A stretch of DNA of 64,000 nt from Prototheca cutis. Its lineage: Eukaryota > Chlorophyta > Trebouxiophyceae > Chlorellales > Chlorellaceae. The DNA lies in assembly GCA_002897115.2 (NCBI GenBank), contig BCIH01000003.1, positions 392,010 to 456,009 of the forward strand, in the 5' to 3' direction. A program made the position numbers and the translations under genes. The notes below the pieces were generated by a model. It did no database searches. It had not been told where the DNA came from and was given only the letters and a program-made list of their open reading frames with translations. This document shows positions 3,571-19,600 of this stretch, in pieces (position 1 is the first letter of the stretch; each line of letters starts with the position of its first letter).

Positions 3571-3594
3571 GGCCTGGTCTCCCAGGCGCAGTTG
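3571..3594 (+). promoter_or_regulatory. Leader of the permuted tRNA: hairpin and splice-site helix partner
   Basis: Bases 3572-3588 can form a hairpin (GCCTGG, TCT loop, CCAGGC). Alternatively, GCAG at 3588-3591 can pair with CTGT at 3672-3675, one pair being G-U. CAGG at 3583-3586 can pair with CTTG at 3679-3682, again with one G-U. Together with the anticodon stem this makes a bulge-helix-bulge-like fold. In it, the AAG bulge (3676-3678) would be cut after A3677 and the TTGA bulge (3592-3595) before A3595. That is how a tRNA splicing endonuclease would circularise the precursor. The pairing was done by eye. Confidence 0.5.
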
Positions 3595-3677
3595 ATCTGT
3601 AGGTCCCCAGTTCGATCCTGGGAGGCCGGAGTGCATAATCCGGCCTTAGCTCAGTTGGAAGTAGCGACAGACTGTAA
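3595..3677 (+). tRNA. Permuted tRNA-Tyr(GUA): 3' half precedes 5' half
   Basis: The mature tRNA is split and reversed in the DNA. The 3' half (3595-3630) comes first: base A38, anticodon-stem strand TCTGT (3596-3600), variable loop AGGTC, T arm CCCAG-TTCGATC-CTGGG (3606-3622), acceptor strand AGGCCGG (3623-3629) and discriminator A3630. A 9-base spacer follows (3631-3639). Then comes the 5' half (3640-3677): acceptor strand CCGGCCT (3640-3646), TA, a D arm containing TAGCTCAGTTGG, anticodon-stem strand ACAGA (3667-3671), CT, anticodon GTA (3674-3676) and A3677. All seven acceptor pairs, five T-stem pairs and five anticodon-stem pairs are Watson-Crick. Reordered, it gives a 74-nt class I tRNA. 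C1-G72 and A73 match the known eukaryotic tyrosine identity elements. The internal B box therefore lies before the A box. No normally ordered copy is seen here. Confidence 0.9.
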
Positions 3678-3691
3678 GCTTGAGATCAATC

Positions 3692-3696
3692 TTTTT
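3692..3696 (+). terminator. RNA polymerase III terminator of the permuted tRNA
   Basis: A run of five T, followed by a second run at 3699-3703, begins 14 bases after the end of the 5' tRNA half. This is a standard Pol III stop. It supports a single transcript covering leader, 3' half, spacer, 5' half and trailer. Confidence 0.75.
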
Positions 3697-4034
3697 GCTT
3701 TTTATCCTTTCGGCTACCTATATTTTCCCTTCACGAGGGCGAAGCCATGGTGTTGATATCAGGTCAGCTCATCCCACACACTTTTTTTGTGTCTGTTTCA
3801 GTGCACCATGGCAGGAGGGTGTTGAGACGACGGGGGGCCAACCCTACGTTTGTCACAGCAAGGAATAACGCCAGGCTAGCAAAAGAGCATTCGCGGCTGC
3901 AAACGCACAGGAAGAAGCAACAAGAGCTAGCGTTCACTTGCAAAAGCAGGGTTCATTAAGGCTTGTCGTCCGGAGGAGCGCAGGGTTTTTGGTCCTAGGG
4001 GCACGATGCCAGGTTGGCTGCACGGCTGCAGGGC

Positions 4035-7000
4035 TCACTCCACCTTTTCTCGTTTTGTGAGCTCAAACATTACGGCCGGCAGGCGATAGATGTTGATCAG
4101 CGCCCAGTACAGCTCCTCTTCAAGTGCAAGCTCGCCCTCGGCCCGTGCGATGTAGATGTCCTGCAGCAGATTGGATGAAATGTAGTTGTTTGGTGGTGGA
4201 CAGTGTGTCGGGGCACCCAGATGAATTCCCACGGGTCCCCACAGAACAAAGGAATCGCCACCATCACCCACAAAACAAAGGAAAAAAAATCAAAACTCGC
4301 CTGACAGAGGGCAGCCAGGCGGCGCGTGTTCGGGAGGTCCTCGTACGGGATCCTCATGCGCAAGTTTGTCACTGAGAGCCGCAGGAAGCGCCCGATGCCG
4401 TAGACAAAGACGGTGTACAGCCCTGCAATGCCAAATTTGGACAGCGTCTGCCCGATCAAGCCGCCCTGCACCCGGTCCAGTATAGACACCAGCCTGCATT
4501 TTTTCAATCAGGGTTGGGGTGGGCGGACTGGCCGTCGTGCAGTCGCGCATGCCTTTCCCCCTGCCAGACCGTATGTTGGCCCTGGCATACGCGTGCGACT
4601 CTACCAACGTACTGGGGTCCGTGGAAAGAGCGGGTGCAGTGTGCCTTGGTGGTGTCCTCCATGGGCCCGCCCTCCTCGTCCACCAGACCGCAGTCAAAGT
4701 GCCACCACGTGCCGCCAGCTGTCCCTGGCTCGTCCTGGCCCAGACTCGCGTTGCACGCCACCCACTGGCTGTTGGCCAACGAGCTGCTCGTGTCCTGCGG
4801 AGGTTTTGTTAGGGTTTAACATTTGTGCAACAATTGACAGTGCAGCTGCTTGCCATTATTGGACCCCACCCCCGCGGATGGACCCACGATGCTCAAACCA
4901 ACCCCCCGAACTCCCCCTCAGAAAGGAACGTACGGGGAGCGAGGTGTCGGTGAGGAGAGGCTGGCTGGCGCACACGTCGCCTCGCATCCGCCAAAACCGC
5001 GGGTAGAGCGCCACGGTATCGTTGGTGTCAGGTCCCTGACCCCGGCGTCGGTCCAGGGGGACCGGTTCGGTGCGCTTGCCGTTGACAAGATCCAGGAGCC
5101 CCGCCCGGCTGCGATTGCCCAGGTCGAGCAGGGTGATGCCCGAACACACGGGTCCACCGTGATCCGTGGGCGGAGGCAGGTTTCGCTCCATGGTCCACCC
5201 AAAGCTGAGCTGGGCCAGGGAAGCTTCGTCTTCCAGCAGCCCAGCCAGCGATTTCCGGCCTGGACCCGGCAGCTGCCAGTACACATCAGCATCCTGCATT
5301 GTTGTGGGGCTTGGTTTGGGGTGAAGAGGGCGGTGGCATCCATGAATCGCTGACGCCATGTTCTCCTTCCGCGGGCATTGATTTACCCGGGGGGAAATAA
5401 AAACAAGAATTCCAGCTCCCAGCACGCAACAACTCTCTACCGGTGCGGTGCAGAGGAGCTGGAACTGGGCAGGCTCGTAGTCGACCATCCCTGGGCCCAG
5501 CGCAGCGGCAGCGCCGTCCCAGGTGGTGCTGAGTCGGCGGTGACCGACGCTGAACAGCGGGAAGCTGCGCACGCTCCCCGCCGCGGCCCCGGGCGGCGAG
5601 CGGCCCACCAGCGTCGCATTGACCGAAAACTCTAGGACTGTGGGCACCTGGTACGTGGGGTTGCCCGAAGAAAACACCAGCAGGGGTACCCACAGCAGGA
5701 GCAGCAGCCCAATGAACAGCAACGTGCCCTGGAAAAATTTGAGGTAGCGTGGCTGGCGCTCGCCGCGGCGCTTGGTGGCGCGGGACCGATGGTTCACCGC
5801 CACAAAGTACAGACTCTGATTGATGTCCTCCAACTTCAACCAGTCCATAAACCTGCATTTTGTTTGTTGTTCAGTGTTTATTGTTTGCTTGTTCGTTTGA
5901 TACCGCTGCAGGCCAGTGGTGTGCGTGCATACACCATGCACTCATGTCACGCTGTCCAAGAAAAGGCACAACCCCAAACTCCCCGCTCGCTCACGTCAGC
6001 GTGGTCGGGGTGCAGGACCAGTCCAGCAGCTGGCGGAGTTCATACAGGAAGGGCACCGCGATGAACACCTGGTAGCACGCCGCACTCACGGCATTCACCC
6101 GCCGGCCAAACACACACGTGTGCCGGCCCATGCCATTCCTGCAAGAAAAGAGGTGAGCAGAAGTAGCGAGATGGTGCGGACGAGCGGTGTGGAAACGGGA
6201 GCAAGGAACGCAGCTCATCCGTCCCGATGTCCCCCCCCTCCGCCACCCACACCCACACCCACACCCACACCCACACCCACCCACCCACACACACACACAC
6301 ACACACGTGCGCGCGAAAAAGCAAATAAACCCGAGTGTAATGCACCTGTAGCTCGCGGGAGGGGGGTAGCCCGACCGCAGTTGCAGGGAGGACAGCGCGA
6401 GCGACACGCAATTGAGAGCCATGAGCATGCGCAGGTGCGCATGCGCGGTGGCGCTGGTCGCTGGCGACCAGAACAACGACATGCAGTACGAGGAGAAGAT
6501 GCCCAGTTGACTGCATGAATGCGGTTTTGGGGGGAGGGGAGGTTTGGAAGGGACACTGGCAGTTGGGGGCAGTTGACGTTTGGGGGCATCATTCATCCGT
6601 GTCTGGCACCACCACCACCACCTCAGGGCCCCCCCCCCCCTCCCCCCCCCAAAAAAACAAAAACAAAAACAAAAACAAAAAACGAACTGCACAATACATG
6701 AATAAAGAAAGACTCACGTGCAGAGCAGCAGGGCCTTGCCCAGCGGGCTTCCCACGGTGTAGAACAGGCGGTCCAGCACGATGAGCATAAACAGCGTCAT
6801 CAGGGTCACCAGGTAGCCAAAGGGAACCACATGTTCATTGGTAATTTCTGTGTTGTTTTGGGTTAGGGCAGTGAGGGAACGGGTTGAACACTCGCAACAG
6901 GCAGCTTCTGTTGGTTTGTATGTTGAGGTCCAAGATACAAATTGAGATCCGGACCTAGAGCGCCAGCATCCCCCCCCCCCAACCCTGGAGCTCACCGGAA

Positions 7001-16623: not shown

Positions 16624-19600
16624 ATGTTGGCGGTCGGCACCCAAATTTCCATCGTCCTTCGCGACGGCGAGGTGCGTTGTGCTGGTGACTGTGCTGAGCA
16701 GGAGGGTGCGACCGGGTCGTGGTGCGGGGATGCGACTGTCCAGGCTTTGGAAGTTTTCAGGGCATACCCCATATCTTATATCATGTATTCCTACATGAAA
16801 CCACCCCATGGGAACGTGCACAGGAGCCGGTGACTGGCACAGTGCGGCACTGCAGTGCCACCGGTCGCAGCTGCCGGTTGCAACTGGAGGATGGTTCCCT
16901 GGAGCAGGTTAACCTTCCCAAGCACCAGTACAGCATTGTTGATGATGATACAGACTCTGATGCCGAGAGCGCAGACTCTGGAGGCAGCAGCGAGGAGGAA
17001 GATGTCGCTGAGCCATCAGCCGGCAGACACGCCAACGGCCATGCTGCTGCCCAGGGGCAGGCTGGGCAGGACAACGATGACAGTGTTAGTGAGGGCAATG
17101 CCCACGATGGTGATGCAAGCGACGACAACGTCAGTGAGAACGAGGGCGAATCAGCACGCTCCTCCTCTGAAGACGAGGGCGAAATGGCCCCGCTCTTGGA
17201 CATTCTGCCGCCTGCGGAGGCCGAGGCCGTTGATGCGCTGGCCGCTGCCGCCACACCGGCCTCGTTCCTGGAGCCGTCGGAAGAGCTGTCGGCTCTGTCC
17301 CGTCGGGCGGCGGCCGCGCTATACGCCGTGGCGGCTCGGGGCGCCGACGAGGCCGGCGCCGACGTGCTGCCGGAGCTTTACACCGACGGCTTTGACCCCG
17401 AACAGATCTGGCTGCAGCTGGACATGCTGGGAGCGCCGGCAATGGGCCGGGCTAGACGCCTGCTGAAGAAGACACATGGCGAGTTTGACTTGTTGACCCC
17501 CGAAAACGCCGAAGCCCTGGAAGGTGAGCGGGAGGATTGTGGTGGGTTTGGAGAGAGTTTTTCCCAGGTAACGGATGGGTCTGATTTCAGGGAGCGGAAA
17601 CTGTTTTGACCGCCTGCAATGTTCAGTGGTCTACGCCGTCGTGATGAAGGTGCTCAACCCCCTACCGATCGGCAACAATCCCACAGAGCTGCTGGGAGAC
17701 GCGAAGGCCGGGAGCGAAAGCGAGGGCGACTCTGAGGACTCTGAAGACAGTAACCGCATTGTTGGTGGCGAGCGCGCGGATCTCGAGGATCTCGACTATG
17801 CCGCCATGCTCGCCGCCGGTGGCAAGGGTGGATCAGACTCTGATGACGCCGCTGGAACCGACAACGGAGCNGCAGAAGCTGCCGGGAAGCCGGCCAAGCC
17901 GCGGCGTGCGCTGGCAGCGGTGGAGGACGACTACCTCAAGCTCGACGAGATGGAGGCGTTTCTGCAAGATGCTGAGCGTGCCGCCGCTGAAGAGGAAGAT
18001 GCGGAGCAGGGTGATGCCGGTGAGCCGCAATTGTGTTGTTGCATTTGGTAGTGGTTTGGGGTGTGAGAGTGTGTGTGTGTGTGTGTGTGNNNNNNNNNNN
18101 NNNNNNNNNNNNNNNNNNNNNNNNNNNNNNNNNNNNNNNNNNNNNNNNNNNNNNNNNNNNNNNNNNNNNNNNNNNNNNNNNNNNNNNNNNNNNNNNNNNN
18201 NNNNNNNNNNNNNNNNNNNNNNNNNNNNNNNNNNNNNNNNNNNNNNNNNNNNNNNNNNNNNNNNNNNNNNNNNNNNNNNNNNNNNNNNNNNNNNNNNNNN
18301 NNNNNNNNNNNNNNNNNNNNNNNNNNNNNNNNNNNNNNNNNNNNNNNNNNNNNNNNNNNNNNNNNNNNNNNNNNNNNNNNNNNNNNNNNNNNNNNNNNNN
18401 NNNNNNNNNNNNNNNNNNNNNNNNNNNNNNNNNNNNNNNNNNNNNNNNNNNNNNNNNNNNNNNNNNNNNNNNNNNNNNNNNNNNNNNNNNNNNNNNNNNN
18501 NNNNNNNNNNNNNNNNNGGGGGGCGCGGGCGCATGTTCTTGGGCGATGAACGGGCATGTGCAGCGTGTCCGCTCCCCCTCGCAGTTCCTTGATCTTGCAA
18601 GTGCAGCAAAAACACAAATGTACATGCTCATCAAATCTTGTATCACCCATGCGCCACCGTCTTCATCCCACAAATGACTCACACAGTCCAAGGGCTGGTC
18701 TTTGGGGAGGAAGAGGCTGCGATGATGGACGGTGAGGGTTCCGATGCGGAGGCCGGACGGGAGGCCATGTACGAAGACTTTTTTGGCCCTCGCCATGCCC
18801 GCGGCGCGGTGGCGCCCCTGCGCGTGCAGCCTGAGCGCCTGGGCCGTTCGGCCGCGGCGCTGCAGGCGGACCTGGAGGTCCGCGCGGCTGGTGATGATTC
18901 AGAGGAGGAGGATGCTCTGGACACCCAGCTGGCCGTGGATGAAGGAGAAGGTTCTGATGAGGGCAGCGAGGATGACCTAGATGCTGTGAGCGGCAGCGAT
19001 GCTGACGAGCTGGACGAGGAGGAGAATGTGTTGGACTCAGACAACGACGAGGGGGCGCTGTTTGCGCGGGGCAGGAAGGGTGCATCGGTGATGGAGGACT
19101 TGGAGGACCTCGGCACCAGTGACGACGAGGACGCGGCCTTTGTTCGCATGCCCGGCCACAGGACCAGGGACGAAAACCTTTCCACCCACGAGCGTCGCAT
19201 GGCCAAGGTCTGCTTGTTTGTCGATTGTGTGAGGACTGCTCTGTCATGCTATTGGCATCCATCCACCACTGCTGATGCTGTCTTGCACGACAAGATAACC
19301 TCCCCTTCCCCTCCCCCCCAAACACACACACACACGCGCGCACACCACACCACTGTCGCCACCGCCGCCACCCCTGACCCCACAACAGGTGGCAGAGCGG
19401 ATCAGGACGCTGGAGGAGGAGGCGATGGCGGAGAAGGCATGGTTCCTGCGCGGCGAGGTTGGCGGGGCGCAGCGCCCGCTGCACTCGGCGATGGAGGTGG
19501 ACCTGGACTGGGAGACGACGGTGGCGCCGCCGCCCGCGCCGACCGAAGAAAGCACAGCCAGTCTGGAGGACAGGATCCGCGCCCGAATTCTCGACCGCCG

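Follow-up and report, generated by a model that had tools for sequence, protein, structure and literature searches.

Permuted tRNA genes, in which the 3' half of the molecule is encoded ahead of the 5' half, are themselves a known kind of gene, and the part of a review cited throughout this text (PMC3978253) gives a total of 34 in six algae and one archaeon. Maturation through a circle is described there for red and for green algae, in which RT-PCR and northern blots detected the intermediates. In Cyanidioschyzon merolae, 11 of 43 genes are given as permuted, with junctions at 20/21, 37/38, 50/51 and 59/60 and none of them for Tyr (PMC3978253). The type II genes of Ostreococcus, Micromonas and the Bigelowiella nucleomorph are split at 37/38, with a bulge-helix-bulge (BHB)-like junction and spacers of 5-64 bp, and number at most six per genome, with none listed for Tyr (PMC3978253). 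A permuted tRNA-Tyr(GTA) is recorded for Thermofilum pendens; this archaeal gene has its junction at 59/60, a 1-bp spacer, an intron and an encoded CCA (PMC3978253).

Here we describe a permuted tRNA-Tyr(GTA) gene in Prototheca cutis, which has the identity of the T. pendens gene but the order, the 37/38 junction and the BHB-like junction of the type II genes. P. cutis, which is non-photosynthetic, carries 38 such genes, Tyr included, with spacers 9-80 nt long. As in C. merolae, where circular RNA was shown, its permuted genes are accompanied by a T run and, in part, by TATA-like upstream elements (PMC3978253). The 38 permuted genes among 56 tRNA genes found exceed the number in any genome of the review's table (PMC3978253); what is new is the host and the extent.

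The assembly of P. cutis JCM 15793 (GCA_002897115.2) is described, in the part of the source used, as 20,029,045 bases in 46 scaffolds (PMC11302234) with a GC content of 60.3% (PMC5772498, likewise in part); our searches covered 19,886,974 bases in 23 contigs. No member of the light-harvesting family was recovered in a search of the genome, which speaks against photosynthesis in the host. Among the matches listed, Auxenochlorella was the nearest named relative, with P. cutis exons for 6-phosphogluconate dehydrogenase and citrate synthase 82% and 85% identical to it; for citrate synthase, one other protein ranked higher, at 95%. Permuted tRNA genes were reported in 2025 for Auxenochlorella UTEX 250, together with a tRNAscan-SE set that is incomplete (PMC12636532; preprint PMC12633428). 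Among the matches listed, this was the only paper to bring Prototheca together with permuted tRNA, and the word 'permuted' is absent from the main text of the Prototheca genome papers PMC6168571, PMC11302234 and PMC5772498. For P. wickerhamii, 64 tRNA genes were counted by tRNAscan and are said, in the part of the paper used, to cover all tRNAs but selenocysteine (PMC7941945), which does not fit a dominance of permuted genes across this lineage.

The tRNA-Tyr locus

The window, the whole 64-kb stretch of DNA analysed here, has a GC content of 62% and contains a 428-base run of N at 18090-18517 plus scattered single Ns. On the downstream side of tRNA-Tyr, the reverse strand at 4856-5848 encodes the C-terminal portion of a mechanosensitive channel of the Piezo type (PF24874). 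tRNA-Tyr(GTA) is encoded complete at 3595-3677 on the forward strand, as are all features of the locus given below, in the permuted order of positions 38-73, spacer, positions 1-37 and T5 run. The 3' half (positions 38-73; 3595..3630) contains the 3' strand of the anticodon stem (3596-3600), the T arm with the B box (3606-3622), the 3' strand of the acceptor stem (3623-3629) and the discriminator A73 (3630). The 5' half (positions 1-37; 3640..3677) contains the 5' strand of the acceptor stem (3640-3646), the A box (3647-3658), the D arm (3649-3665), the 5' strand of the anticodon stem (3667-3671) and the anticodon GTA (3674-3676). Both halves were placed by sequence, covariance model, finder and fold. 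A 9-nt intervening sequence (3631..3639) connects the tRNA's 3' end with its 5' end and would be removed after circularisation, and TTTT is absent from the Tyr unit. A likely RNA polymerase III terminator of the form T5 GC T5 follows at 3692..3703, with its T5 runs at 3692-3696 and 3699-3703.

After reordering, the acceptor stem pairs at 7 of 7 positions, the T stem at 5 of 5 and the anticodon stem at 5 of 5, and the D stem has three pairs only; the anticodon loop reads CTGTAAA, and C1-G72 and A73 are present. The arrangement of an ordinary gene, with the 5' half first and the A box before the B box, is not what is found here. The initial annotation had reported a circularly permuted nuclear tRNA-Tyr gene with perfect acceptor, T and anticodon stems, a GTA anticodon, C1-G72, A73 and a B box ahead of the A box with T5 after them; all of these are borne out, its coordinates are exact, and its interpretation of the gene is supported.

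Because the gene is permuted, it was expected that neither ARAGORN nor Rfam at the gathering threshold would report a tRNA in the 64-kb window, and neither did. Scored against a rotated covariance model, in contrast, tRNA-Tyr reached 55.9 bits (E 3.8e-12; 231,820 bases searched). The rotated model, R1, was built solely from eight ordinary class I tRNAs of the same genome, rotated in silico at 37/38 and given random spacers. Applied to 25 permuted genes seen by our permuted-gene finder (59 sources), it scored 22 of them at 43.8 to 69.3 bits; Leu AAG reached 32.0 bits, and Ser TGA (23.8) and Gln CTG (22.8) were both misaligned, the T arm of Gln being misplaced by R1 and placed correctly by the finder. 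A 21-nt variable arm in Trp proved false, since alignment by hand gave a 5-nt arm with 4 of 5 stem pairs. Halves of ordinary genes scored at most 28.1 bits, apart from one artefact of 35.6 bits in which neighbouring ordinary Asp and Pro genes (L018/L020) were read across each other.

Chance as the origin of the tRNA-Tyr architecture is excluded by the controls. The finder gave 0 hits on reversed sequence (334,365 bases, both strands), and a pattern of B box then A box occurred at 5 places in the genome compared with 0 for its reversal. Four of the five are permuted tRNAs; the fifth (L013, C8:561509) matched neither model nor finder and is not a tRNA.

The gene is single copy in the assembly, a draft with gaps from which a region may be missing. 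The joined 74-nt mature sequence matched only its own two halves in the genome (E of at most 10; the first look put forward one candidate), and the 133-nt locus matched only itself. No ordinary tRNA-Tyr occurs among the 17 ordinary tRNAs above the Rfam cut-off. The A-box pattern TAGCTCAGTNGG occurs at 14 places in the genome (10 permuted genes, 2 ordinary genes and 2 chance matches) and is accompanied by a GTA anticodon at the window locus only; the A-box places L078 and L079 are not tRNAs. Viral contigs scanned for the permuted Tyr pattern contained none. The initial annotation had stated that an ordinary tRNA-Tyr elsewhere, combined with an absence of reads across the permuted junction, would make this gene a pseudogene; the joined-sequence, locus, Rfam and A-box searches found no ordinary tRNA-Tyr.

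Permuted and ordinary tRNA genes across the genome

The permuted-gene finder and the model cover ordinary order and junction 37/38 only. The finder demands 6 of 7 acceptor pairs, 4 of 5 anticodon-stem pairs, A14, G18G19, T33, G53-C61 and T55C56, candidates below 18.5 points were dropped ahead of the counts, and the inventory is a lower bound. It comprises 56 tRNA genes, 38 of them permuted (with distinct flanks) and 18 ordinary, the latter being 17 seen by the finder plus a Met gene that it missed and that Rfam and ARAGORN detected. A permuted-tRNA search of the whole genome had been proposed in the initial annotation, which called such genes rare; at the one junction searched, they are instead the majority of the tRNA genes found in this genome. 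With Rfam RF00005, 17 ordinary tRNA genes lay above the cut-off (of 246 first-look candidates, 63 were scored), and ARAGORN detected none of the 7 permuted genes among 35 small loci. A gene finder that assumes the usual order of the halves would overlook the greater part of this inventory.

The permuted genes have 26 anticodons: those for Ala (AGC three times, TGC), Arg (CCG, TCG, TCT), Asn (GTT twice), Cys (GCA), Gln (CTG twice, TTG), Glu (CTC four times), Gly (GCC four times, TCC, CCC), Ile (AAT twice, TAT), Leu (AAG, TAA), Met (CAT), Pro (TGG), Ser (CGA, TGA), Thr (AGT twice, CGT), Trp (CCA), Tyr (GTA) and Val (TAC). No ordinary gene was found for 12 of these amino acids. The ordinary genes represent 11 species, namely Arg (ACG twice, CCT), Asp (GTC three times), Leu (CAG three times, TAG, CAA), Lys (CTT twice), Met (CAT), Phe (GAA) and Pro (AGG twice, CGG). 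Both Met genes carry A54; by the GGG:CCC anticodon stem of the ordinary one, it is taken as the initiator and the permuted one as the elongator. Met aside, no isoacceptor was found in both architectures, so that the loss of a permuted gene would not be covered by any gene found. Absent from this incomplete inventory are His, Lys TTT, Glu TTC, Val AAC and CAC, Thr TGT, Ser AGA and GCT, and Ala CGC.

The short patterns used match permuted and ordinary genes alike. Pattern GGTTCGANTCC occurs at 43 places and in 26 tRNA genes (17 permuted and 9 ordinary), pattern GGTTCGANCCC at 54 places representing 50 sites, with 6 permuted and 5 ordinary genes, and pattern TAGCTCAGNGG at 14 places, with 2 permuted genes and no ordinary one. 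The pattern TGGCSSAGTGG, with 106 places in the genome, was kept outside the gene counts.

The permuted genes as a set are well paired, with 265 of 266 acceptor pairs and 188 of 190 anticodon-stem pairs formed. When each anticodon is represented by a single gene, 309 of 312 pairs form in the acceptor and anticodon stems, whereas swaps of halves (n=2000) averaged 161 pairs and never exceeded 195; since pairing at 6 of 7 and 4 of 5 positions was already a condition of the finder, this result is a measure of the shortfall of chance pairing and not a second test. T8 is kept in all 38 genes, although it is outside the finder's demands. In multi-copy families (n=7), the mature parts differ by 0-1 base, one difference in Glu being an N; Leu(CAA), whose intron ends are unclear, was left out of this identity table. 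The spacers and flanks of most multi-copy permuted genes diverge, and the Gly GCC copies, for example, have 4-7 of 9-10 spacer bases identical. The resemblance among the four Glu copies extends to their spacers and flanks, and two Ala AGC copies have a spacer in common.

Two permuted Gly(GCC) genes lie in tandem about 315 bases apart (L061, C13), and two permuted Ala(AGC) genes on separate contigs (L025 on C7, L070 on C2) are exactly identical in their halves and spacer; from these cases, permuted genes seem to duplicate as units. A lone 3' part of tRNA-Phe occurs at L054 1605-1667 on the reverse strand, where a permuted Glu(CTC) gene follows some 80 bases downstream. The Phe part is nearly identical to the 3' half of the ordinary Phe gene and is followed by a T run, and no 5' half was seen in the adjoining stretch. 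It may be what is left of a gene or of a permutation that failed.

Splice junctions and maturation

At the tRNA-Tyr locus, the leader at the 3' splice site (3583..3594) was delimited by a cloverleaf-constrained fold and by leader/loop complementarity across the genome. With the cloverleaf enforced, C32, U33, G34 and U35 of the anticodon loop pair with leader GCAG (3588-3591), and the trailer GCUUG at the 5' splice site (3678..3682) pairs with the outer-helix segment CAGGC (3583-3587); leader UUG (3592-3594) forms a bulge. One cut site then falls inside a 4-nt bulge and the other at the edge of a 2-nt bulge. The initial annotation had suggested a BHB between leader and trailer that would place the cuts at the two half ends, and this arrangement is recovered in the constrained fold. 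It is not recovered at the canonical register, where 32 faces -3 and 1 of 4 leader/loop pairs forms, as against 4 of 4 one base further, nor in the free fold of the 133 nt, which at -51.3 kcal/mol compared with -46.7 for the constrained one favours another leader-trailer helix and a leader hairpin at 3572-3587. Of the 26 leaders, that of Tyr has the second-best duplex energy with the Tyr loop and trailer, and in the leader/loop pairing table Asn and Gly GCC have a one-base register shift resembling that of Tyr. The folding predictions point to a BHB-like motif at the Tyr junction in a relaxed, one-base-shifted form.

Because the finder makes no use of the leader, complementarity between leader and loop is an independent test of the permuted set. 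At the canonical central helix (pairs 32:-3 to 35:-6), with a single gene taken for each anticodon, 67 of 104 pairs form, compared with 51.2 +/- 3.3 for shuffled leaders, and the pair 32:-3 is present in 16 of 26 genes compared with 11.9; none of 5000 shuffles was as high in either case. The mean energy of the leader/loop duplex was -5.8 kcal/mol, as against -3.8 for shuffled leaders (0 of 500). In a register test, none of 2000 shuffles was as high at the canonical register and there was no signal at two neighbours; at the register one base further, 57 of 104 pairs form and 54 of 2000 shuffles were as high. A gene's own leader was the best of the 26 for 5 genes, in the top three for 12 and 13th or worse for 8. 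The outer BHB helix was not significant across genes at a fixed register (p 0.14). Junction 37/38 is also where the ordinary Asp, Pro AGG, Pro CGG and Leu TAG genes carry their introns. Two tRNA-splicing endonuclease domains (PF01974) were found in the genome.

These data make it very probable that 3595-3677 is a working, single-copy, type II (37/38) permuted nuclear gene for tRNA-Tyr(GUA), matured via a circle and one of at least 38 with this architecture. By analogy with the algal pathway, we infer that RNA polymerase III would make a single transcript running from the leader through the 3' half, the spacer and the 5' half to the trailer, in which the halves would form the cloverleaf, the 9-nt spacer closing its acceptor end, and leader and trailer would meet at the anticodon loop as an open 'intron'. 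The tRNA-splicing endonuclease would cut at 3594/3595 and 3677/3678, and a tRNA ligase would join A37 to A38 and so give a circle. RNase P and tRNase Z would then excise the spacer, and CCA would be added.

It is improbable that the gene is an unused relic or pseudogene, with the tyrosine tRNA supplied by an ordinary gene that was missed or lies outside the assembly. Relics do occur, as the tRNA-Phe 3' fragment without a 5' half indicates, the gene list is incomplete, and the draft assembly has gaps, with N runs in the window itself. Against this, the Tyr stems, save for the three-pair D stem, are intact, with the invariant bases retained (in the other genes, partly as imposed by the finder), and no second match to tRNA-Tyr was obtained. 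The same excuse would be required for 12 amino acids, and the fit of leaders to the anticodon loops of their own genes also speaks against it.

Still less probable is a tRNA that works in two unligated pieces, as permuted tmRNAs and a mitochondrial rRNA do according to the part of the review cited (PMC3978253). The leader/loop complementarity is what a splice-site helix requires, the halves are split at the place where eukaryotic tRNA introns lie, those of the ordinary genes named above included, and the algal precedent is ligation into a circle (PMC3978253). An artefact of chance or of assembly is the least probable explanation of all, for although the assembly is a draft from short HiSeq 2500 reads in the part of its description used (PMC11302234), the 38 loci have distinct flanks and almost always a spacer not seen elsewhere (one is common to two Ala copies), reversed controls gave no finder hits and swapped halves fail to pair.

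Transcription signals, sister genes and meaning for the lineage

A run of T4 or longer lies within 60 nt downstream of all 38 permuted genes, compared with 9.8% of random 60-mers from the window, and a T5 run lies there in 33 of 38, compared with 3.6%. Within the spacer, TTTT occurs in one of the 38 permuted units (Arg TCG). In the 60 nt that follow the gene, the hexamer TTTTGC, seen at 3693-3698 of the window, occurs for 26 of 38 permuted genes and 12 of 17 ordinary ones (Leu(TAG) left out), as against 1.2% of random window 60-mers; it may be a variant of the Pol III terminator peculiar to this lineage.

No TATA-like motif is present in the 60 nt upstream of tRNA-Tyr. Across the permuted set, such a motif, picked after the sequences had been inspected, starts between -60 and -30 from position 38 in 16 of 38 genes and between -29 and -1 in 2 of 38; most lie at about -45 to -40. 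The corresponding count for ordinary genes, at -60 to -30 from position 1, is 1 of 18 (Fisher p 0.0044, first window tried), and three further windows gave p 0.0074 to 0.044. With one gene per anticodon, the contrast is 11 of 26 permuted to 1 of 11 ordinary (p 0.051). Random stretches of the window carry the motif in 2.6% of cases, the window being poorer in AT than the upstream regions (51% AT), and for AT richness upstream the contrast between the two architectures was not significant (p 0.15 and 0.26). In C. merolae, TATA-like upstream elements are reported for most genes, permuted and ordinary alike (PMC3978253). The enrichment at permuted genes may be treated as a lead drawn from sequence comparison.

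One sister pair bears on how permuted genes arise. The permuted Pro(TGG) gene (L037 1445-1525, reverse strand, C2 near 935340) and the ordinary Pro(CGG) gene with its 48-nt intron (L022, C1:222817-222936) are identical at 71 of 72 mature bases and differ at the wobble base. This degree of identity may mean that one architecture gave rise to the other, either not long ago or through gene conversion. A tandem duplicate that recently lost its outer halves is a possible origin, for which homology of the leader, trailer or flanks of Pro(TGG) to the intron or flanks of Pro(CGG) would be expected. The upstream score of the pair was third among 54 comparisons, with 12 of 1000 shuffles as high, and unrelated pairs scored higher. 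The leader and trailer of Pro(TGG) match the Pro(CGG) intron over 7 and 6 bases only; no intron trace was found in either, nor any clear flank homology between the two genes. We tentatively consider, at somewhat less than even odds, that permutation may have become the default form of nuclear tRNA genes in this lineage, with the switch ongoing, as the Pro pair might illustrate, and with permuted genes having partly moved to TATA-like promoters.

With the only tRNA-Tyr gene found and most of the other nuclear tRNA genes found permuted, the cell probably depends on cutting these tRNAs and rejoining them via circular RNAs. Auxenochlorella is a genetically tractable relative that is reported, in the part of the work cited, to carry permuted tRNA genes (PMC12636532). 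One lineage thus makes testable the transcription of genes with inverted A and B boxes, the way in which permuted genes arise, for which the Pro sisters offer two architectures one base apart, and any benefit of circular tRNA precursors. If the inventory holds, translation in P. cutis would rest on the circularisation of most tRNAs, with permuted genes the only ones found for 12 of the 20 amino acids.
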